In this document: positions 17,437-38,452 of the stretch, piece after piece
How positions within the stretch are numbered: position 1 is the stretch's first letter
Layout of the letters: each line of letters starts with the position of its first letter
Assembly (NCBI RefSeq): GCF_900115975.1
Contig: NZ_FOYM01000023.1
Location: 1,056 to 60,712 of the forward strand
Source of the DNA: Desulfoscipio geothermicus DSM 3669
Lineage (GTDB): Bacteria > Bacillota > Desulfotomaculia > Desulfotomaculales > Desulfallaceae
Reading direction: 5' to 3'
Length of the DNA stretch: 59,657 nt
Program-made: the position numbers and the translations under genes
The notes under the pieces: generated by a model
Told to the model about the DNA's origin: nothing
The model's database searches: none
Seen by the model: only the letters and a program-made list of their open reading frames with translations

Positions 17437-18168
17437 TCAAGCATCCGCAACGGAAAAAGCAAGCTCATCAATGGTAACATCTTCAGGCAAAGGTTTTATC
17501 TCCGTAAAGCGCACATACAGCGTCTCGTGCCCCCGTAATCCTTCGGGCAAAGGTCTGATGGCCAGCCGCCCGTAGCGATAATAATCAACCTCTGTCCAAG
17601 GACCTTTCGGTGAAGGCGATATCTGTGTCTTTATATAGCCGGTCAAATCGAAATCAACATGCGAGTAACTTTCAAAAGCCTCGTGGTAATTCAACCGGCT
17701 GCCCCGCACAGCCACTTCAATCCCGTCTATCGGCCTGCCCCGGTTTGATACCGCAAAAGTAATTCCCCCGGGTTTCAAATGGTAAATCTTTTCCTCTTCC
17801 GTGGACATGGTTCTCGAAAGTCCGTAATGTCCGGTCTTGATTACTTGAAAATCTTCCTCTTTGACAGGCGCACCGATATAAACGGTGCCCAGATCTCTGG
17901 TAGTTTTATCTTGTATGTCGCGTTTGATCTTTTCCATGACCTGCTCGTTCGGCCGAGAATTTAGAAAACGAAAAACATATACGCGCGTGGTGGTCTTCCA
18001 GTTAAAATAGTTATCGCTCAACTCCGGTTCTTGAACGTCGTTCAAGTCAACACCACTTTCAGTTGGTAAAATCCCGGGTTCCGGTTCCCGGAACCCTTTC
18101 CCCGCGAAAAAAGCCACAGCGGCAATTAAAATTGCCGCCGCGGTTAAAGCCAAAAATTTGCGACTCAT
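17437..18168 (-). CDS. Membrane-anchored extracytoplasmic protein, unknown
   Basis: 243 residues. An N-terminal signal anchor (F-L-A-L-T-A-A-A-I-L-I-A-A-V-A-F-F-A) is followed by a soluble, mostly beta domain with T-T-R-V-Y-V-F-R-F and Y-Y-R-Y-G-R-L-A-I-R-P-L. It lies between the CpaE-like gene and the M23 hydrolase; its start overlaps the hydrolase stop. The context suggests an accessory mating-channel or wall component. No family was recognised. Confidence 0.55.
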   Translation of the reverse strand: MSRKFLALTAAAILIAAVAFFAGKGFREPEPGILPTESGVDLNDVQEPELSDNYFNWKTTTRVYVFRFLNSRPNEQVMEKIKRDIQDKTTRDLGTVYIGAPVKEEDFQVIKTGHYGLSRTMSTEEEKIYHLKPGGITFAVSNRGRPIDGIEVAVRGSRLNYHEAFESYSHVDFDLTGYIKTQISPSPKGPWTEVDYYRYGRLAIRPLPEGLRGHETLYVRFTEIKPLPEDVTIDELAFSVADA

Positions 18169-18689
18169 TAATCAACACCCCCGTAATATTTAATGGGATT
18201 TCGCGGACGACCGGCCACACGGATTTCAAAGTGCAGGTGCGGGCCGGTGCTCTTGCCCGTGCTGCCGACATAACCGACAACATCGCCCGCGCTCACCCGC
18301 TGACCAGGAGTAACGGCAATACGGGACAGGTGGAAATACCTGGTTTCCGCAACTCCATGGCTTATAACCACCGCTTTGCCCGCATTGCCCATCCACCCGG
18401 TTGCCTTTACCACCCCTGTTCCGGCGGCCAGCACCGGTGTGCCGGTCGGGGCGGCCACATCAATCCCTTCGTGAAAACCATAGCCGCCATTTACAGGGTC
18501 GATCCTTTCGCCAAACTCCGAAGTAACGTTGAATACGCCCGGCACGGGCCACAGCCAGGGTCCGGACTCATCCGGCCTCCAACCGGGAGGCACGTCCGCG
18601 CCTGCGTTTATAATAAAGCTCAGGTCGGTAATTAAATATTTCCGGACCTCCTCCAGGTCCACATCCAAGTCATCACAAACTTCCGTCAA
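18168..18689 (-). CDS. M23 (LytM) peptidoglycan endopeptidase, C-terminal part
   Basis: 173 codons from a TTG without a ribosome site. The LytM domain carries H-E-G-I-D-V-A-A (zinc His and Asp) and H-L-H-F-E (catalytic and zinc His), with G-N-A-G-K-A-V-V-I-S-H-G between. Such enzymes cut peptide cross-links so that mating channels can cross the wall. The frame is continuous with 18756-19142 apart from two UGA codons at 18758 and 18722, and the lack of a ribosome site here argues that both parts were, or are, one protein of about 324 residues. Confidence 0.78.
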   Translation of the reverse strand: MTEVCDDLDVDLEEVRKYLITDLSFIINAGADVPPGWRPDESGPWLWPVPGVFNVTSEFGERIDPVNGGYGFHEGIDVAAPTGTPVLAAGTGVVKATGWMGNAGKAVVISHGVAETRYFHLSRIAVTPGQRVSAGDVVGYVGSTGKSTGPHLHFEIRVAGRPRNPIKYYGGVD

Positions 18690-18755
18690 GGTTTTCAGCC
18701 TGAAAACCGGGTAAGTGGTTCAGGTTCTATTCTCCCCACTACCCACACAGTGGGT

Positions 18756-19142
18756 TCACGTGCCATCCTGCTCAATAAAGCTTTCAGCCAAAGATTCAGC
18801 CCTGCTTTTGGTAACTTTCTTAAAATTTTGCTTGAGACGCACAGCGTCTATGGCAATCATCTGCTGCCAGTCAATCAAGTCCACCCCGTCGTCGCAAGGC
18901 GATTTCGTGCTTGCCGTCACCTCTTTTGCCGCGTCAACATACAGCTTAACCCGTGCGGGCGGAGCTACGGGCACATGCTCATAAACCACAATCGGGCCGG
19001 CAAAAATCAGGGCAAGAAGCGTCAGGGGCAGCAGCATTGCCAGCAAGATAAATTTAACGACCTGTTCCGGCTCCGGCACAACTCCCGAAATAAAAGCCCT
19101 GGCCAGAGCCTTTGCAATATAACCTGCCGCCGGCGGGGCCAT
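18756..19142 (-). CDS. N-terminal part of the conjugative M23 hydrolase
   Basis: 128 codons. Residues 29-50 are a membrane anchor (F-I-L-L-A-M-L-L-P-L-T-L-L-A-L-I-F-A-G). After it, D-G-V-D-L-I-D-W-Q-Q-M-I-A-I-D-A-V-R matches the stalk seen in Firmicutes mating-channel hydrolases. It ends in UGA at 18756-18758, directly followed by a 6-bp hairpin, with the same frame continuing into the M23 domain. The start overlaps the VirB4 stop (TAATG). It is either the first half of a broken gene or the first part of a read-through product. Confidence 0.65.
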   Translation of the reverse strand: MAPPAAGYIAKALARAFISGVVPEPEQVVKFILLAMLLPLTLLALIFAGPIVVYEHVPVAPPARVKLYVDAAKEVTASTKSPCDDGVDLIDWQQMIAIDAVRLKQNFKKVTKSRAESLAESFIEQDGT

Positions 19143-20944
19143 TATTCGCCACCACCCGTCAGCAGGGGCAGTTCATAGGGGGCGGCTTCAATTCTGGCCC
19201 GGATGCGCTGCGCGCCGGCAACCAAAAGCCCCTCGCCGCGCCTGGCGCTGAAGAGCAACTCTTGCTCCGCTTCGGACAAGTTCATCAACCGGGACAATAC
19301 TTCAAGGTCCTTCTCACCCTGGGCAAGCAATAGCTTGTAGCAAGGGTTGTCCAAAAGCGCCTGCCCGTGCATGGCCACGGCCGGGTCCAAAAAATCCACG
19401 ACATTCTGGCTGATTACAAACAGACCGCCCATGTACTTGCGGATGCGCTTTGAAGTATCTCTTAGAAAAGCAAGGGCCTGGGGCGTCTGGGGGTCCACCA
19501 GCAGCCACGCCTCGTCCACCACCAGGATTGTTTTTTCCTGCCGGTCCCGCTCTATCTGGTGCCAGGCGTAGGAAAGCACATTAAAATACTGCGCCCGCCG
19601 CACTGCTTCATCGGCGTTCTGCAACTCGTGCACATCCAGGACAATCAGATCCGAATCCGCTTTGGCCGTAGTGGGTCCGGCCCACAGGGAAGAGTCAGCG
19701 CCTTTTGCCGCCCGGCGCAACAACACGGCGAGCCGCTCCCAGTTGCCGGGACTGGTTTCGGCTTTGGCCGCGATATAATCATACAATTCCCTGGTCGTGG
19801 GCCACCTGTCTTCGGAAACGGAAGCCGGATCAGTATCCCAACTGATACCGGCCTCTTGGTAAATATCCACCAGGGCGTCTTCCAGCGACGCTTTTTCCAC
19901 ATCCGAAAGGTCCCGCAGGTATAGCGAAAAAAATGTGCGAAGCGTTTTCAAATGCAGCGCCAGAGGACCTTGCACAGCTTCCGATTTTTCAACCTCTTCT
20001 TCATCTTCTTCATCGCCCACCGGCACGGCCCGCACCTGCAGAGGGTTAATACGTCCCTGGCCGCCGGCGCAATTGATCCAGGCCCCGCCCAGCTGCTTAC
20101 ACATCTGTCTGTACTCTCGCTCGGGATCGATAATAATCACCCGCGCCCCCTGGGCCAGTTCCCTGAGCAGTATTATTTTTACCGCGAAGGTTTTCCCCGC
20201 CCCGGGCTTCGCCAATACCGTCCAGTTGGAATTAGTCCTATCGCCCACTCTTTTCCATATATCCACCAGGATCAGCCCGCCGTCCCGGTCCCGGCCAAGG
20301 ACAGTGCCGCTGCCGTCATTAATGCCGCCGGCCGTAAAAGGAAACGAAGCCGCCACCGTCTCTGAAGGCATATTCCTCTTTCCGGCATCCGATATTTCAG
20401 TGGGCAACATAGCCCAAGGGCCAGCCGCTTTAAGACCGTCTTCCTGCCTGAAGACAGCCGCCCGGCCCCGCATGCCCGCCGCCGCCAGCGCCGCCTCCAC
20501 AGCCCGCGATCTCCTGTCCAGCGTCTCCCGGTCGGGAGCCAGCACAAGCAAAACCGTGGTCAAATTAAATACCTGCTGCTGCTCCTGGTCGATTTTCCTT
20601 AAGAGCTCCCGGGCATCTTTCAACCCCTGCTCGGCGCGCTGCATGACAAGAGCGTTGCCGCCCTGTTCCAGCCTTGCGGTCAATTCGCCAATGGACTTGT
20701 TGATGCTTTTGGTTAATTCAGTAGGATCGGTTGGTGTAACGTGTATGGAACAGACCACCCCGGGCATGCCGGATACACGGGACAGCCAGGCGGAATTAAC
20801 CCGGGGCGGATAACCGGTGATTACCATAACCCGCCCCAGCTTGTCACCGAAAACAATATCGCGCGCGTTAAACTCCAGCGCCTGCGGGGCCAGGCTGTCC
20901 AATAGTCCCGACGCCTTCACTGATGTATTATCTTTTTTGGCCAT
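19142..20944 (-). CDS. virB4: VirB4/TraE-type conjugation ATPase (motor part)
   Basis: 600 residues. Walker A A-K-P-G-A-G-K-T (245-252), Walker B I-L-V-V-D-E-A-W (473-480), plus the family's R-K-Y-M-G-G-L-F-V-I-S-Q-N segment. ATG with AGGAGG 8 nt before. VirB4 powers assembly and transport of the mating channel at the inner face of the membrane. It begins 11 bp after a separate gene carrying the N-terminal domain (20956-21606). In many relatives both are in one protein of about 800 residues, so this element has a split VirB4. Confidence 0.9.
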   Translation of the reverse strand: MAKKDNTSVKASGLLDSLAPQALEFNARDIVFGDKLGRVMVITGYPPRVNSAWLSRVSGMPGVVCSIHVTPTDPTELTKSINKSIGELTARLEQGGNALVMQRAEQGLKDARELLRKIDQEQQQVFNLTTVLLVLAPDRETLDRRSRAVEAALAAAGMRGRAAVFRQEDGLKAAGPWAMLPTEISDAGKRNMPSETVAASFPFTAGGINDGSGTVLGRDRDGGLILVDIWKRVGDRTNSNWTVLAKPGAGKTFAVKIILLRELAQGARVIIIDPEREYRQMCKQLGGAWINCAGGQGRINPLQVRAVPVGDEEDEEEVEKSEAVQGPLALHLKTLRTFFSLYLRDLSDVEKASLEDALVDIYQEAGISWDTDPASVSEDRWPTTRELYDYIAAKAETSPGNWERLAVLLRRAAKGADSSLWAGPTTAKADSDLIVLDVHELQNADEAVRRAQYFNVLSYAWHQIERDRQEKTILVVDEAWLLVDPQTPQALAFLRDTSKRIRKYMGGLFVISQNVVDFLDPAVAMHGQALLDNPCYKLLLAQGEKDLEVLSRLMNLSEAEQELLFSARRGEGLLVAGAQRIRARIEAAPYELPLLTGGGE

Positions 20945-21927: not shown

Positions 21928-22767
21928 TCAAGCCCCCCTCGTCAGCATTTTCCGCACCAGAATCATCTTGGCCGCACCCCCGGCCGCGCTGCCGATGCCG
22001 GTATGGTGGGCGAACTGCCGCAAAAAACTCGGCGCTTTGAAAGTCACCCAAAGCCAGGCGATGGCAAAGTATGGTCCGAAATCGCTGGCCATGTTTACTC
22101 CCTGGGCCAGAAAGCCCTTGATAAGCAACACCTGAAGGGCCTGAGTCATGCTTAGAACGACCAGTTCCCGCCACCAGGTGGCAAACACGCCCTCGTCGTT
22201 CTTGAGCAACCCGATGGCCATCACCGGCCCCACGACCGCCAGCGCGCCCAGTTCCACCCCGCGAATGGCGGCCTGGACCAGAATAAGAAACCACAAAACC
22301 AAAACTATCAAAACCATGATAACCAGGGTTACCGGCATATCCAAGGCCGAACCCAGACTTACGCCCTCAAAACCTCGTTCAATCTCATACGAGGAAATAG
22401 TTCCAATCGCCCCGGCCAGGCTGTTACCCAATTTATATACAAACTCCGCCAGCCACGGCATCCCGGCAATGGCCGCAGCCCCCAAAGCCGCCCTGGTCAA
22501 TAGCCTGCCGATGTCCGCGCCCGGTTCCCCGTGCTGGTACAAGATATACGAGCGCAGGCATTCCACCGTCACCGCCACAGCCAACAGGCTGCCGGCAGCC
22601 GCCTGGGATATACCGATGGCGTTTCGGACCAGGGGGTTATCCAGCACGTCCATAGCTACTTTCATTAAATTCGTAACCTCCAGCATGGCCATATTGATCA
22701 TTGAGTCGGCTATGCCGGCAAAAAAATTGACAATGGCTCCCGTAATGAGGTTGTATATTACCTCCAC
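21928..22767 (-). CDS. TrbL/VirB6-like polytopic channel protein
   Basis: 279 residues with about six membrane helices, including V-T-L-V-I-M-V-L-I-V-L-V-L-W-F-L-I-L, and the conserved-looking R-G-V-E-L-G-A-L-A-V-V-G-P-V-M-A near 170. The extracytoplasmic loop is short. It lies between the pilin-like gene and PrgI, the position typical for the VirB6-type channel subunit. Confidence 0.82.
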   Translation of the reverse strand: MEVIYNLITGAIVNFFAGIADSMINMAMLEVTNLMKVAMDVLDNPLVRNAIGISQAAAGSLLAVAVTVECLRSYILYQHGEPGADIGRLLTRAALGAAAIAGMPWLAEFVYKLGNSLAGAIGTISSYEIERGFEGVSLGSALDMPVTLVIMVLIVLVLWFLILVQAAIRGVELGALAVVGPVMAIGLLKNDEGVFATWWRELVVLSMTQALQVLLIKGFLAQGVNMASDFGPYFAIAWLWVTFKAPSFLRQFAHHTGIGSAAGGAAKMILVRKMLTRGA

Positions 22768-23178: not shown

Positions 23179-25071
23179 TTACAACTCACTTAAAATATCC
23201 ACGGGTTCCGGTTTTTCAATGCTAAAATCATCACTGATCTCCTCCGCCGGCCCGGGTCCGGGCACCCAGATCTTGGGCTGAACTATCGCCTCCTTCCCCA
23301 AAGTATTTGCCAACTGTACAAAATCATCCGCCGCCGGCCAAACGGACAAATCCGGCAGCGGCAGCCGGGCCGGATTTGTCCGGCCCCGAAAGATAAGGGA
23401 CCGGCCCACCGGCCACCTGAGCACCTCGTCCGGCAGTAAAAGCGACCGGCCTGCCAGCCCGTACGAAACGCCCCGGGTATGATCTTCCTTTCTCACTTGG
23501 GCGCTCAGGTTTTCCGTCTGCTGTGTGTACTTGCCGGTTTTCTCGCTTAACAGCCTGGCCGTTTCATAATCGGCCGTGGACAGATACACCCACGTGTTGC
23601 AGTTTCCGGAAATGGTAGTCGCGTCATTTTTATAACGCTTCTTGATTTGGTCCAGTCCCTGAATCGCTATCAAAAATTTCATTCCGCGGCCGCCGGCCAG
23701 GGTGATTTTTTCAGCAAAGTCCGGTATCGGGGGCAGGTTGCCGAATTCTTCGAGCAAAAAGTGGACTCTTTTGTCCAGCCGCCCGCCGTTTGCCCGGGCA
23801 AGTTCCGTCAGCGCCGTGTACGTCTGCGCTATATAAAGCGCCGCCAGGATATGCAGGCTGCTGTCTTCGTCCGGCACCACTATAAATACGGCCGTTTTTT
23901 CCCTGCCGGGGGCGGCCAGGTCATGGTCCTGCTCCGCCGTCAACCAACATACCCCCGGATCGGACCACATTTCCAGCTGGGCGGCCGCCCCGGTAAAAAT
24001 ACCGTTGCGGAGCTTGCTCTCGGCCATGGCCGCCACGCCGTAGGCAACCTTGGCCGGGTGATCGTCATCAAGACTATCAAAGTATTCATCCAAACCCTTT
24101 CCGCCGTTTTTGCCCAGGCTGGTCAGGGTACGGTAAACACTGCCCATGTGCCGGGCCGGAGCCGGGGCCTCCATGCTCACCGCCAACGCCAGGGCCGCTG
24201 TCAGACTCTTTTGTGACTGCGGCCATATTTTGTCTCCCTTATACTCTTCCGGCCGCTGGAACTGGTAGGTCAGCATGTGCGCCAGTTGCTTGGCCGCCTT
24301 CGCCGCCCCCGTCTCGTCGCCGTTTTGCAGGCGCATAATGACCGGGTGCAGGAGGTTCCAGCGGTTGCCGCTGCCCGGGGCCTGGAAATCCAAAAGTATT
24401 ACGTTGTACCCCTGTTCCCACAGGTAACCGGCGGTTGTATTGAAAAGCTCTTTCTTGGGGTCGGGTATGATCATACTCTCCCCCGCCCGGGCAATAGTCC
24501 AGATACTGGGCATGATCAGCCGGCGGGATTTACCCGAACGGGTAGCGCCGATCAAAAGGGTATGGGTATCGTCTGTGTCAAGCCAGGAGTAAAAGTTCTT
24601 TCCCTGCCGCTTTGCTCCCAGAACCACCCCGCCCCTGGGCAGTTCTTGGCCGGTATCCCATAGGTAAAAGTTGCTATTCACCTCCTTTTCCGTCTGCCAG
24701 CGGGCGGTTCCGAACTGCCCCTGGCCCGCCGCATCCGGCCCGCCGATGTCTCTGTTGGTCCTTTTGCGCCGCATCAAACCATATTGGGTAAATATGCCGA
24801 TAACTGCGGCCGCAACCATGGGCTGAAAGTAATACCAGACCGTGCGGGTCTGTTCTTCCTTTAACAACACAGCCGGACCGGCCAAGGGTTTTTGGTACAC
24901 AAATTGTTTCCACCCGGCCAGCCCGGCTTGAAAACCTTGTTCCTTCACGTACCAGGGAAAATGCAGCAGCAAGGGTAAGGCGAATACATTAATCAATAGC
25001 AACGCAATAAAAAGCATCAGTCGAAATTTCATACCCCTGGACAACTCCGGTATTCTTTTTCCTGCAAACAA
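23179..25071 (-). CDS. virD4: VirD4/TraG-type coupling protein
   Basis: 630 residues from the TTG at 25071, chosen because GGAGG lies 10 nt upstream; a longer frame to 25125 runs through the terminator. Two N-terminal membrane helices precede the motor: Walker A G-A-T-R-S-G-K-S (near 175-182) and the Walker B region F-L-L-E-E-F-G-N-L-P. P-D-P-K-K-E-L-F-N-T-T-A and R-G-M-K-F-L-I-A-I-Q-G-L-D-Q are family blocks. It joins relaxase-bound DNA to the channel and is the first gene of the channel operon. Confidence 0.92.
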   Translation of the reverse strand: MFAGKRIPELSRGMKFRLMLFIALLLINVFALPLLLHFPWYVKEQGFQAGLAGWKQFVYQKPLAGPAVLLKEEQTRTVWYYFQPMVAAAVIGIFTQYGLMRRKRTNRDIGGPDAAGQGQFGTARWQTEKEVNSNFYLWDTGQELPRGGVVLGAKRQGKNFYSWLDTDDTHTLLIGATRSGKSRRLIMPSIWTIARAGESMIIPDPKKELFNTTAGYLWEQGYNVILLDFQAPGSGNRWNLLHPVIMRLQNGDETGAAKAAKQLAHMLTYQFQRPEEYKGDKIWPQSQKSLTAALALAVSMEAPAPARHMGSVYRTLTSLGKNGGKGLDEYFDSLDDDHPAKVAYGVAAMAESKLRNGIFTGAAAQLEMWSDPGVCWLTAEQDHDLAAPGREKTAVFIVVPDEDSSLHILAALYIAQTYTALTELARANGGRLDKRVHFLLEEFGNLPPIPDFAEKITLAGGRGMKFLIAIQGLDQIKKRYKNDATTISGNCNTWVYLSTADYETARLLSEKTGKYTQQTENLSAQVRKEDHTRGVSYGLAGRSLLLPDEVLRWPVGRSLIFRGRTNPARLPLPDLSVWPAADDFVQLANTLGKEAIVQPKIWVPGPGPAEEISDDFSIEKPEPVDILSEL

Positions 25072-25100
25072 ACTAATAACCACCTCCAACAAAATGTGAT

Positions 25101-25135
25101 ATAAAAATAAAAAATCCAGGGTCAATAATCCCTGG
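25101..25135 (-). terminator. Terminator before the coupling-protein gene
   Basis: CCAGGG (25116-25121) and CCCTGG (25130-25135) form the stem; reading minus it is followed by ATTTTTTATTTTTAT. It ends the GNAT-ASCH transcript and lies 30 nt before the VirD4 ribosome site. Confidence 0.75.
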
Positions 25136-27190: not shown

Positions 27191-28417
27191 TCACCTTTCT
27201 TGCTCCTTTTCCTTTTCCCGCCGGCGCATGCGCTTCTCGTCTTGCGCCCGTTTTTCCATCTCACCGCGTGCTTCTTCCCGGGAACGCGCTTTCTCAATAG
27301 CATGCCAGACATTACGCCAAAGATTCCCAGCCAGGCTAAAAGAATAATCTCTGCCCGCCTTATCCGGACCTCTTTTCTGCACCTGCGCCGCAGTTTTTAA
27401 TACGAGCTGCGCCACCCGGTCCCGCAAATCATTGTAGGCGTTTTCCTCCGCCTGGTTGAGCCTTTGATCCTGCGAAGTATAATGCCCGGCCATTTCCCGG
27501 GCAATCTCTTTATACCTTCCCGAGGATGCCGCAAAGCCCGGCTTTGCAAGCAACCAGTCAGCAATCTCCCTGGCCTCAGCCTTGACTTCCTCCGGCATGT
27601 ACTTCAGCGCCACCCTGCCCTTTCCTGGCATAATTTTGGCCAGGTTTTCCACCCGCCTGGCCAGATCCTCCCGGTCACTGTCGGACAGTCGCGGCGCAAC
27701 TCCCGTCGTGCCTCCTTCCATGGCCCGAACCTCTTGCCGGGCTGACTTAATCCGGACCACCAAGTCATGCGCCCGGTCCATTTCACCCCTGGCAACATCC
27801 CTAATCATATCCCTGAGGGCTGTTTTTTCCACCCCGAGCCGGCTCCGCTCGGCAGCATAGAATGACTTGATAAAAGCCTTGCGAACATCTTTCCTTTCCC
27901 CGTCGCTCAGAACCCCCCTTCGTCTTTGTGCTTCTTTTTCCCAAATAACCAAATGGACATGCGGGTGCCCGGCCTCCGCATGATAGGCGGCCACCCACCG
28001 GAGATTGCTCTCCGGTATGCCCATAGCCCCAGCCGCTTCGGAAACACTGGCGCGAAGAGCATCCTCCCAACTCTTGCGGTCGATATATCCCATCCGCTTG
28101 GCCGTATCTTCCCTGAGCGAAAGCACAAACCGCCAAACTATACCATCGTGCTGTTTCAATTCTTCCATAACTTGTTTAATATCCAGCGGCTTTTCGTCCG
28201 CCCCAAACAATCCATGACTCCGTGGCCTCTCCGCCGCGTATTTAACGTGGCCGGCCGGGCTGTCAATTTTAAACTTCTCAAAATAGCGGTCGCCTATATC
28301 AGCATCACCCCGGTCAACCCCCGGCCTGGTGCCTATATATACTATGTGTGCGATATTTTTATAGCTGTTATCGCCACCAGGCAAATAAAACCTGGCTTTC
28401 ATGAAAAACGGAGGCAT
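27191..28417 (-). CDS. mobP: MobP-type relaxase
   Basis: 408 residues. Three-His metal motif H151-P-H153-V-H155 in E-A-G-H-P-H-V-H-L-V-I-W, preceded by R-F-V-L-S-L-R-E-D-T-A-K and G-Y-I-D-R-K-S-W. This is the MobP family layout of Gram-positive elements. The N-terminal Tyr9 or Tyr19 region could carry the DNA-nicking Tyr. The C-terminal 200 residues are charged and helical, ending in a basic stretch R-M-R-R-R-E-K-E-K-E. The enzyme would nick oriT and lead the strand to VirD4. Its start overlaps the stop of the RHH gene. Confidence 0.86.
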   Translation of the reverse strand: MPPFFMKARFYLPGGDNSYKNIAHIVYIGTRPGVDRGDADIGDRYFEKFKIDSPAGHVKYAAERPRSHGLFGADEKPLDIKQVMEELKQHDGIVWRFVLSLREDTAKRMGYIDRKSWEDALRASVSEAAGAMGIPESNLRWVAAYHAEAGHPHVHLVIWEKEAQRRRGVLSDGERKDVRKAFIKSFYAAERSRLGVEKTALRDMIRDVARGEMDRAHDLVVRIKSARQEVRAMEGGTTGVAPRLSDSDREDLARRVENLAKIMPGKGRVALKYMPEEVKAEAREIADWLLAKPGFAASSGRYKEIAREMAGHYTSQDQRLNQAEENAYNDLRDRVAQLVLKTAAQVQKRGPDKAGRDYSFSLAGNLWRNVWHAIEKARSREEARGEMEKRAQDEKRMRRREKEKEQER

Positions 28418-29439: not shown

Positions 29440-29817
29440 TCACCTGGTAGCTGCGGCGCTCCCGTCCTTGCCGGGCGGCACAATCCGGACAGCTACTTCG
29501 TCCTGTAAACCCATATTCTCCAGTATGTTTTTGTTGATGTATATTAACCCCAACTCCCCTTTTTCCTCGATGTCCTCGGCAAATCTGATTTTTTTAACTG
29601 TTTCTTTGTCATAAACAAACCTGGCGGTATATCCGCCAGGCGGGAAATCTTTTTTATCCGGTGCCAACTGGACAATAAGCTTGTCTGAGATATTTACTTC
29701 GCTTAGAAGCGATATGGGCAGGTATATCCTGCCAATACGGTCCATGTTTTCTTTAAAGCAAGCTTTGCACTTGGTTGTCTTCTTCAGCCGCATAATAAAT
29801 TCCATTATCAAAATCAC
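29440..29817 (-). CDS. AbrB/MazE-like small DNA-binding protein
   Basis: 125 residues. C-K-A-C near residue 17, then D-R-I-G-R-I-Y-L-P-I-S-L-L-S-E-V-N-I, a swapped-hairpin AbrB-like pattern (G-R-I-x-L-P), and a C-terminal beta region. The GTG start overlaps the TopB stop. Alternative starts are Met5 and Met9. Probably a transcription regulator of the maintenance region; the assignment is by pattern only. Confidence 0.5.
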   Translation of the reverse strand: MILIMEFIMRLKKTTKCKACFKENMDRIGRIYLPISLLSEVNISDKLIVQLAPDKKDFPPGGYTARFVYDKETVKKIRFAEDIEEKGELGLIYINKNILENMGLQDEVAVRIVPPGKDGSAAATR

Positions 29818-32174
29818 TACCCCCCATTGAATTCAAATCCAACTTTCCCATCCTGCAGCACCAAAACAGCGTCAAACTTTTTACCGGTTTTGGACTTAAA
29901 GCCTTTAATCGTACCGGTTTTGCCTTTCTGCAATAAATCCTGTGCTCGTTTGGCGGTGATCTTTTTCCCGGCAATCTCTTTCCAGATCACGAATTTGCAG
30001 CCTTCTTTATAGCCGATACAACCGTACCCTTTGGCCGACTCGGTGATGTCTTTACCGCATAAAGGGCATTTTCCTATAGCTTGTTTTGTATTATCATTGT
30101 CAAACCAGAATTCCACTTTGCCGTCTTTCAGCTGTAATACTGCGTCAAATTTGTTGCCTTTCTTTGATTTAAAGCCTTTGATGATACCGGTTTTACCTTT
30201 TGCCAGCAATGCTTTGGCTTGTGCCGGGGTGATCTTTTTCCCGGCGATCTCCTTCCAGATCACGAACTTGCAGCCTTCTTTGTAACCGCTGCAGCCGTAA
30301 CCTTTATTGCCCTCGATGACTTCTTTCCCGCAAATTGGGCATTTGCCCAGGGGATCTTGATTTGCTTGCAATTGGTTGGCTGCCTGGTTGCGAACCAGCT
30401 CAACAATTTCGCCGGCCAGCTTTTTGATTCCGGCCATGAATTCTTGCGGGTCGGCTGTGCCGGCCTCTATATCGGCCAGTGTTTTTTCCCACCGGCCGGT
30501 CAGTTCGGGGTTTTTTATTATGTCCGGCACCAGATCAATCAACGCCGTTCCTTTTTCCGTGGGTACCAGCGTCTTCTTGTTGCGTTCTATGTAACCCACT
30601 TTAATCAGCCGTTCTATGATAGCCGCCCTGGTTGCCGGGGTGCCCAGGCCATGCCCCTTCATAGCTTCTTTCAGCTCCCGGTCATCCAATAACCGGCTTG
30701 CTCCCTCCATCACCGCCAGTAAGCTTGCCTCGGTATACCGTTTCGGCGGTTGGGTTTTCTTTTCCTGAATCTCCGTTTTTTCGGTCAATAATGCTTCACC
30801 CGGGACCAGCGCCGGGAGGGCCCCGGGTTCGCCTGCATGCTTATCACCGTTTTCCGCCGGCGCATATACTGTCTTCCAGCCTTTTTCCAGCTCTACCTTA
30901 CCGGCAGTAACAAAAGTCTCTCGGGCTGCCTCCGTAATCACTCGGGTTTGTTTATACCGGGCCGCCGGGTAAAAGATGGCCAGAAAACGGCGTACTACCA
31001 GGTCGTAAATATTACGCTCGTTGGGTGTAAGTTTGGCGAAATCCGGTTTAACGGTCGTCGGGATTAATGCTGTATGATCGCTTACCTTGCTATCGTCTAC
31101 ATACCGTTTACCAGGAATACCCGCAGCCTGTGCCGCGGCTGCAAACGGCCCGTATTCATCAAGAGTCGCCAGAATCGCCAGCCGGCCCGGTATGGTTTCG
31201 GCCAGTTCCCGCGTTATATGCCGGCTGTCCGTGCGGGGGTAGGTGATCAGTTTTCTGGTTTCATACAGGGACTGCGCCGTCTCCAGGGTTTTGGCCGCCG
31301 AAAGGCCGAATTTTTTGTTGGCTTCTTTTTGCAAATCATTGAGGTTGAACAGCATCGGCGGTTGTTCAGATATGTCTTTTTCCTCAACTTCCACGACTGC
31401 AGCCGGCTGACCGTTCACCTTGACCTGCACAACCCGGGCCTCTTCGGGTGTGTTAAACCTGTTTTGCTCGCCATGAAACCATTTACCCGTATAATTCCGC
31501 CCGTCGTTTTTTGTAAATTGGGCGTATAGTACCCAATAGGGCGTAGACACAAAGTTTTTGATCTCATGTTCGCGGTTGACAATCAGGGCCAGTGTGGGTG
31601 TCTGTACCCGGCCGACTGAGAGCAATACTTTGTGCCGCACTGAAAATGCGCGGGTGGCATTGATGCCGATCAGCCAGTCGGCCCGGCTGCGGGATTCGGC
31701 TGCGGAGGCCAGCCGGTCGAAATCGCAACCCGGACGCAAGGAGGCAAAACCTTTTTTTACCGCAGCCGGGGTCGTTTCGGACAGCCACAGGCGCTTAAAC
31801 GGCTTCTTGCAGCCGGCCAGGCGATAGATGTAGCGGAATATGAGCTCCCCTTCGCGACCAGCATCCGTAGCGCAGATCAGTTGTTCTATATCAGACCGGT
31901 TAACCAGTTCGCTGACGATTTTGAATTGCTTTTTTGTCCTGGAATTTGCTTTGAGCTTGAATTTTTCGGGCATTATCGGGAGTGTTTCAAAAGCCCATTT
32001 TTTCAGTTGAGGATCATAATCTTCCGGGGCGGCCAGTTCCACCAGGTGGCCGATGGCCCATGTGACCACGTATTGGTTATTTTCCAGGTAGCCGTCTTTT
32101 TTTTGAAATTCGCCCAGCGCTTCGGCCAGATCACGGGCAACGGAAGGTTTTTCGGCTAAAATCAGGCTTTTCAT
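29817..32174 (-). CDS. topB: DNA topoisomerase III
   Basis: 785 residues, type IA topoisomerase. The Toprim start L-I-L-A-E-K-P-S-V-A-R carries Glu8; the acidic motif T-D-A-G-R-E-G-E lies at 103-110; the active-site Tyr312 is in I-T-Y-P-R-T-D-S-R. The C-terminus has two near-identical tandem modules of about 80 residues, each with C-P-x-C-G-K, Y-G-C and C-K-F-V-I-W followed by K-I-T-x-x-x-A-x-x-L-L-x-K-G-K-T-G. Element-borne TopB is thought to resolve plasmid replication or transfer intermediates. Coupled to the small frame upstream (ATGA). Confidence 0.93.
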   Translation of the reverse strand: MKSLILAEKPSVARDLAEALGEFQKKDGYLENNQYVVTWAIGHLVELAAPEDYDPQLKKWAFETLPIMPEKFKLKANSRTKKQFKIVSELVNRSDIEQLICATDAGREGELIFRYIYRLAGCKKPFKRLWLSETTPAAVKKGFASLRPGCDFDRLASAAESRSRADWLIGINATRAFSVRHKVLLSVGRVQTPTLALIVNREHEIKNFVSTPYWVLYAQFTKNDGRNYTGKWFHGEQNRFNTPEEARVVQVKVNGQPAAVVEVEEKDISEQPPMLFNLNDLQKEANKKFGLSAAKTLETAQSLYETRKLITYPRTDSRHITRELAETIPGRLAILATLDEYGPFAAAAQAAGIPGKRYVDDSKVSDHTALIPTTVKPDFAKLTPNERNIYDLVVRRFLAIFYPAARYKQTRVITEAARETFVTAGKVELEKGWKTVYAPAENGDKHAGEPGALPALVPGEALLTEKTEIQEKKTQPPKRYTEASLLAVMEGASRLLDDRELKEAMKGHGLGTPATRAAIIERLIKVGYIERNKKTLVPTEKGTALIDLVPDIIKNPELTGRWEKTLADIEAGTADPQEFMAGIKKLAGEIVELVRNQAANQLQANQDPLGKCPICGKEVIEGNKGYGCSGYKEGCKFVIWKEIAGKKITPAQAKALLAKGKTGIIKGFKSKKGNKFDAVLQLKDGKVEFWFDNDNTKQAIGKCPLCGKDITESAKGYGCIGYKEGCKFVIWKEIAGKKITAKRAQDLLQKGKTGTIKGFKSKTGKKFDAVLVLQDGKVGFEFNGG

Positions 32175-37441: not shown

Positions 37442-38452
37442 TTAGCTTTCGCCAAACTTTAAAAACCCCAGCACGTTGGCGAATTGCGCATCGGGGATAA
37501 CTGAAGCCCCGGAAAACATATCTGCAAGCCCCGGCAGTTCCAAAGCACCGCCGCCGGCCAGGTAAACCCGGCGCACAAAATCTGCCCGGTCGCCCCATGC
37601 AGCCAGCACTCCGTCCGCAATGGATCTGGCTATCACTTTGCGCGCGTCAGCCAAAACATGGCTTAAATCAAGCTCCTGTCCCTTGAACCATACTCGCCCG
37701 GTGCGCAATACTTGCTCGGTATAAACTGCCGGCAGGCGAATACCGGTAAGTTTTAAAAATTCTTCAATCACAGCCTGGTGCAAATGTACAATACCTGCTT
37801 CTACGCTGATACACATAGACTGTACCGGCCGGCTGCCTCCGTTTCCCAACTCCAGTGCTACACAATCCGTTGTCTTATGGCCCACATCCACCAAGGCAAC
37901 TATTCCGTTTGAGGGCATGTCCGGGGCAACCAGCAATGCCCCGGCACCTTGAGGATAAACCAACACATTATCAAAACTAATTTGCTTTACCGGGCCGCCG
38001 TCCACGGATACCGTTGCGGTTAAATTAGTAAGATGCTGAGAAAGGCTTTTCCCTTGTTCGCGATAATAATCAACCGGAAGACCGACAACCAGCTTGCCGG
38101 CAGCCTCCGGTTCCAAAAGCGCCAAGGCCGTAAGCAAAACCACATCATGAACGGGGTGTTTGTGTTTTACGTCATCCAGGGTGAATTGCACCGAACGCCC
38201 TTCCTTAAGAGCCAACTGACCGACGAAAAACCGTTCTGCCGGTGCTCCTTCCTTGCGAATAACAACCGTGTGACCGATGCTTTCATTTGCAAGTTCAGCC
38301 AGCGGCAAGTCCCTGGCCGAACTAATCACCGAAGGAAAGCAAACCCTTTTACCCAAGCTGGAAACCGCCTTCGTGTAACCGTAACCAACATCCACCGCCC
38401 AAACATATTCCTTTTGCGGAAACTGGCATATACGCGCTTCTTGCATTGTCAT
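37442..38452 (-). CDS. parM: ParM-like actin-type segregation ATPase
   Basis: 336 residues. Actin-fold motifs: phosphate 1 D-V-G-Y-G-Y-T-K (about 21-28), phosphate 2 A-L-V-D-V-G-H-K-T-T-D (about 189-199), adenosine site L-A-G-G-G-A (about 309-314). These actin-like proteins form filaments that push plasmid copies apart via ParR. The start has AAGGAG 12 nt upstream. In the ancestral order parR would follow directly; the cassettes now separate them. Confidence 0.85.
   Translation of the reverse strand: MTMQEARICQFPQKEYVWAVDVGYGYTKAVSSLGKRVCFPSVISSARDLPLAELANESIGHTVVIRKEGAPAERFFVGQLALKEGRSVQFTLDDVKHKHPVHDVVLLTALALLEPEAAGKLVVGLPVDYYREQGKSLSQHLTNLTATVSVDGGPVKQISFDNVLVYPQGAGALLVAPDMPSNGIVALVDVGHKTTDCVALELGNGGSRPVQSMCISVEAGIVHLHQAVIEEFLKLTGIRLPAVYTEQVLRTGRVWFKGQELDLSHVLADARKVIARSIADGVLAAWGDRADFVRRVYLAGGGALELPGLADMFSGASVIPDAQFANVLGFLKFGES

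Follow-up and report, generated by a model that had tools for sequence, protein, structure and literature searches.

A 2026 review of prokaryotic selenoproteins, which also tabulates the families of Haft and colleagues, lists 119 families and subfamilies; M23 peptidases, cell-wall hydrolases and conjugation proteins are all absent from this list (PMC13188914). Text searches of the open-licence literature returned no report of a selenocysteine-containing M23 conjugation hydrolase. A G within a small apical loop is common to bacterial SECIS elements (PMC1088965), and an opal (selC*-type) tRNA-Cys has been reported in anaerobic Firmicutes (PMC7609411).

The window considered here, the whole stretch of 59,657 nucleotides analysed from Desulfoscipio geothermicus DSM 3669, harbors an M23 peptidase gene with two in-frame UGA codons. 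On the minus strand, the frame that starts at position 19142 begins MAPPAAGYIAK and, when TGA is read as a residue, continues to 324 amino acids with no further stop. The domain order is a membrane anchor, a helix/β-hairpin domain and an intact M23 (LytM) peptidase domain (Table 1). The latter exceeds the PF01551 cut-off of 28.7 bits and retains the HxxxD and HxH metal ligands; its metal and catalytic residues, all encoded 3' of both UGAs, occupy invariant or nearly invariant alignment columns. A previous sequence-only reading had placed the anchor and LytM parts in one frame, parted only by the two UGAs, and had seen no ribosome site for the second part. Coordinates and frame match, and none of the in-frame ATG, GTG or TTG codons between UGA129 and the peptidase domain has a Shine-Dalgarno core in the 20 nt 5' of it. 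The interrupted gene is almost certainly not broken, and comparison with its relatives makes it very probable that both UGAs are decoded as selenocysteine (Sec).

Table 1. Features of the recoded gene and of its conjugation neighborhood (positions in the window; D. alcoholivorax, Desulfotruncus alcoholivorax).
Feature	Position	Strand	Remarks
Recoded gene, whole: 324-aa membrane-anchored M23 peptidase with two UGA (proposed Sec129, Sec141)	18168..19142	-	Single open frame apart from two TGA; full-length homologues without stops
Stop codon of recoded gene	18170-18168	-	
UGA codon 129 (proposed Sec129)	18756..18758	-	TGA in D. alcoholivorax; Cys in all-Cys homologues and in G488, G489 and G538
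UGA codon 141 (proposed Sec141)	18720..18722	-	TGA in D. alcoholivorax, G488 and G294; Cys in G489, G538 and all-Cys homologues
Cys132 (TGT)	18747..18749	-	Column is UGA in G489 and G538
Cys83, fourth member of the co-conserved set	18894..18896	-	With triad 13/13, without triad 1/15
Transmembrane segment, about residues 31-53	18984..19052	-	Hydrophobic run; AlphaFold helix 25-56
Helix/β-hairpin domain with Cys83, U129, Cys132 and U141; strands 123-133 and 140-149	18573..18974	-	AlphaFold models
M23 peptidase domain (H224, D228, H271, H302, H304)	18195..18476	-	Pfam PF01551, 114 bits
Hairpin abutting UGA129: ACCCAC-TGT-GTGGGT	18741..18755	-	Six of six pairs kept in D. alcoholivorax (one C-G changed to U-G)
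Candidate SECIS of UGA141: GGTTTTCA-GGC-TGAAAACC, loop 19 nt past the codon	18690..18708	-	Identical in D. alcoholivorax; matched by 4.7% of shuffles
VirB4/TraG-type ATPase, directly upstream	19142..20944	-	Pfam PF19044, PF12846
TrbL-type conjugal transfer protein	21928..22767	-	Pfam PF19597, 226 bits
T4SS coupling protein	23179..25125	-	Pfam PF02534
MobL relaxase	27191..28417	-	Pfam PF18555

By its gene content, the window encodes a conjugation system, and the recoded gene lies among type IV secretion system (T4SS) genes, including one for a PrgI-like protein. Similar neighbors accompany the homologues: G489, G538 and G076 have VirB4 and TrbL next to the gene, and G488 has TrbL together with a PrgI-like protein. 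An actin-like (ALP-type) protein is encoded at 37442-38452, and a topoisomerase (29817-32174) and the MobL relaxase are found on the same contig; this contig, of 60.7 kb, may be a conjugative plasmid or an integrated element.

A search of 100 related genomes found one close homologue, that of Desulfotruncus alcoholivorax DSM 16058 (G004), which shares 79% amino acid identity and contains exactly two TGA and no other stop. Both TGAs coincide codon by codon with those of the window gene, and the 11 codons between them comprise 6 identical, 3 synonymous and 2 conservative (N/D, R/K) positions. At a four-fold-site divergence of 0.29, the neutral chance of both TGAs persisting is about 0.12, so that the shared codons are not decisive alone. 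An all-Cys homologue in G076 (49% identity) has Cys at both UGA positions (CTHCQGTGEKRTC). Further members were collected by a profile search of 398 genomes in the phylum, followed by two clades round the matches. Columns 129/132/141 read U-C-U in the window gene and D. alcoholivorax, C-C-U in G488, C-U-C in G489 and G538, and C-C-C in eight rows (G076, G318 with two copies, G365, G470, G208, G500 and G188). The triad is absent from the remaining 15 full-length rows. Cys83 is present in all 13 rows with the triad and in 1 of the 15 without it (13/0/1/14; Fisher p = 7e-7, a descriptive value because the rows are related). The sequence-only reading had set Cys at the two UGA positions against Arg or Trp; the all-Cys homologues carry Cys at both.

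Across these genes, in-frame UGAs hit only three of the four Cys columns in a protein of some 315 codons, and nonsense mutation is therefore inadequate as an explanation. Most likely, judging from the alignment, the relatives place Sec at different members of one four-Cys set (83, 129, 132 and 141). Maximum-likelihood phylogeny scatters the three Sec arrangements, each of which groups with or close to Cys forms or other lineages; repeated exchange between Sec and Cys within the family is therefore probable. Many members lack all four Cys, and thus the Cys/Sec site is dispensable for basic function; two Cys are left near 132/141 in G158 and near 83/129 in G451. A frameshifted homologue in G294 (L073/L085, G294:C1:290803-291352), whose genome contains SelB, is disrupted near the hairpin and reads Y-C-U at 129/132/141; this copy may represent the decay of a Sec form. 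A fifth Cys of the N-terminal domain, Cys156 (18675-18677), is common only to the window gene and D. alcoholivorax, both double-UGA forms.

Searches of other collections yielded few relatives. Two profiles found none in IMG/VR, matches in the plasmid collection were confined to partial M23 ones, none covering 80% of the query, and a single GTDB contig scan returned D. alcoholivorax alone. Sequences of solved structures matched essentially the M23 domain only, and NCBIfam has no family-specific model, its generic M23 models scoring below cut-off.

The sequence-only reading had pointed to selA, selB and selC of the host, and all three are found: SelA (618 bits) and SelB (385 bits) are encoded by adjacent genes, and the tRNA-Sec (71 bits) has a UCA anticodon and a G before the 3' CCA. 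SelB exceeds the cut-off in all five UGA-bearing genomes tested (G000, G004, G488, G489 and G294); in G076, whose homologue is all-Cys and whose genome is 84% complete, no SelB scored over cut-off. Because SelB is also present in most other genomes bearing the family, its presence is necessary but not discriminating. Genome-wide reassignment of UGA to a sense codon is ruled out, as UGA terminates 10 of the 24 window genes. The host also has two unusually long tRNA-Cys genes (GCA anticodon, 92-93 nt, long variable arm) at L041:1501-1592 (+) and L043:1501-1593 (-), which score 47 and 40 bits, respectively, against the tRNA-Sec model and may correspond to the selC*-type tRNA-Cys of the literature.

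Both hairpins described in the sequence-only reading exist as stated, but the evidence they provide is weaker than it implied. The bacterial SECIS model allows a distance of 16-37 nt, and the hairpin abutting UGA129 is too near the codon for a canonical element; no notable hairpin occurs at the canonical distance from this UGA. In energy, the UGA141 hairpin is matched by 4.7% of shuffles, and 27% of the codon positions in this gene also reach its value. Hairpins with G as the first loop residue follow the UGA at 19 nt (UGA141), 33 nt (G488, G294) and 21 nt (G489, G538). These candidate SECIS hairpins are matched by 0.7% (G488) to 27% (G538) of shuffles, a small margin except in G488, and are thus supportive at best. 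Since the hairpins are unremarkable by energy, the signal beyond chance is comparative, namely the shared UGAs and the UGAs on Cys columns.

This comparative signal also bears on the other ways in which the two UGAs might be read. A gene broken by two nonsense mutations in a decaying element, its M23 part dead, would explain two formal stop codons, and the frameshifted G294 relative shows that the gene can decay. However, the stops are common to D. alcoholivorax, the frame is otherwise open, the active-site residues are kept and the UGAs of other lineages lie on Cys columns only, which makes breakage highly improbable. The same observations disfavor the twofold breakage or simple mutation that the sequence-only reading had kept as its alternative, whereas the read-through or Sec insertion into one protein that it also proposed is supported by the shared UGAs, the Cys homologues and the selA, selB and tRNA-Sec of the host. 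In a conserved split gene, translation would terminate at UGA129 and re-initiate downstream, giving anchor and M23 parts as two proteins; translation from a TTG at 18689 could yield an M23 protein of 173 aa. This arrangement is extremely improbable given that the internal starts have no Shine-Dalgarno sequence, that the stretch between the UGAs and from UGA141 to the TTG is coding-like (15 of 21 codons identical and 4 synonymous in D. alcoholivorax), and that UGA-free homologues carry Cys at those positions and are each one continuous protein. Decoding of UGA as cysteine by an opal tRNA-Cys is very unlikely: such selC*-type tRNAs are reported in anaerobic Firmicutes (PMC7609411) and the host has its two 92-93-nt tRNA-Cys, but both carry the GCA anticodon, and of the eight loci that best resemble tRNA-Sec, only tRNA-Sec itself has UCA, with G and not U before the CCA.

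AlphaFold models of the full protein and of the domain alone agree on a transmembrane helix followed by helices and one β-hairpin, with a mean pLDDT of 93-98 per ten-residue block over residues 71-170. The two predicted strands place 132 opposite 141, with 129 on the other side; the turn between them is 6 to 8 residues long across the alignment, and both of its ends are kept. Residues 81 and 84, in the segment of Cys83, are bridge residues by DSSP, and residue 129 is perhaps directed at this segment. Taken with the Cys patterns, the DSSP strings give an even chance of two bridges, 83-129 and 132-141, each of which would here be Cys-Sec; the intact Sec-bearing proteins have at most one Sec per putative bridge. 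With Sec inserted all the same, the four residues might instead form a zinc or other metal site, a reading that rivals only the bridges and is possible but doubtful. Four co-conserved Cys/Sec residues with fixed CxxC spacing are consistent with it, and Sec has been suggested as a metal ligand in other selenoproteins (PMC13188914). Against a metal site, the CxxC lies inside a β-strand and not in a knuckle turn, one pair alone is kept in the two homologues G158 and G451, and the extracytoplasmic location favors bridges.

The affinities of the N-terminal domain are faint. In VIA, five of the six best rows for this domain are peptidoglycan hydrolases, with weak Z scores of 4.0-5.7, and Foldseek with the domain alone gave no significant match. 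The model shows a weak resemblance to lysozyme-like GH73 domains, too little for assignment. Two further loci (L081 and L098) have a related anchor-type N-terminal domain ahead of an apparent glucosaminidase (GH73-type) domain in place of M23, and this suggests that the anchor-type domain is exchangeable among wall hydrolases.

If the UGAs are decoded as Sec, SelB and tRNA-Sec would insert it at both codons, and the downstream catalytic domain would be made. The product would be an M23 peptidoglycan hydrolase, anchored in the membrane and belonging to a type IV conjugation apparatus of the Gram-positive kind, with Sec129 and Sec141 within an extracytoplasmic four-residue Cys/Sec site on the β-hairpin. 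Se-S bridges could then lock the hydrolase-positioning domain, either stably or in response to redox conditions. When selenium is absent, only the anchor fragment would be produced, and conjugative wall opening may therefore depend on selenium. The entire scheme, a selenium gate on horizontal gene transfer in which the wall opener needs selenium, has two Se-S bridges and has had its Sec moved between partners, is tentative and rather unlikely to hold in full.

If Sec decoding is correct, the gene would define a selenoprotein family with a role absent from the current inventory, cell-wall hydrolysis in DNA transfer, performed by an extracytoplasmic selenoprotein with none of the usual redox folds. 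Genes with these UGAs are at present presumably annotated as two fragments or as pseudogenes. Full transfer of such elements is predicted to occur only from hosts that make selenoproteins. With Sec at three positions depending on the lineage, and with all-Cys and no-Cys relatives, the family offers a natural experiment on the contribution of Sec relative to that of Cys.

Like the UxxC/CxxU redox selenoproteins (thioredoxin, glycine reductase and Prx-like proteins, among others; PMC13188914, Table 1), the gene carries an in-frame UGA where a CxxC would have one of its Cys, has homologues with Cys and belongs to a host that decodes Sec. In contrast to them, the proposed product is a membrane-anchored cell-wall hydrolase with no thioredoxin-like or recognised redox fold, and the place of Sec can apparently shift among three positions of the four-Cys set. 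By having two Sec within a short polypeptide, the product would recall double selenoproteins such as the metal-binding UxxU protein NF041115 and selenobacteriocin (PMC13188914), although these, judged by name and motif, belong to unrelated families and domains. With the M23/LytM peptidases (PF01551; MepM, ShyA and LytM), the protein shares the catalytic domain and its HxxxD and HxH ligands; unlike in MepM, ShyA and LytM, the N-terminal domain is specific to the conjugation-linked group. The wall hydrolases of Gram-positive conjugation (CwlT/VirB1-like) are likened to it by operon place, next to a VirB4-type ATPase and a TrbL-type protein, and by membrane anchoring, whereas the M23 catalytic domain and the extra Cys/Sec hairpin domain set the present protein apart from them.
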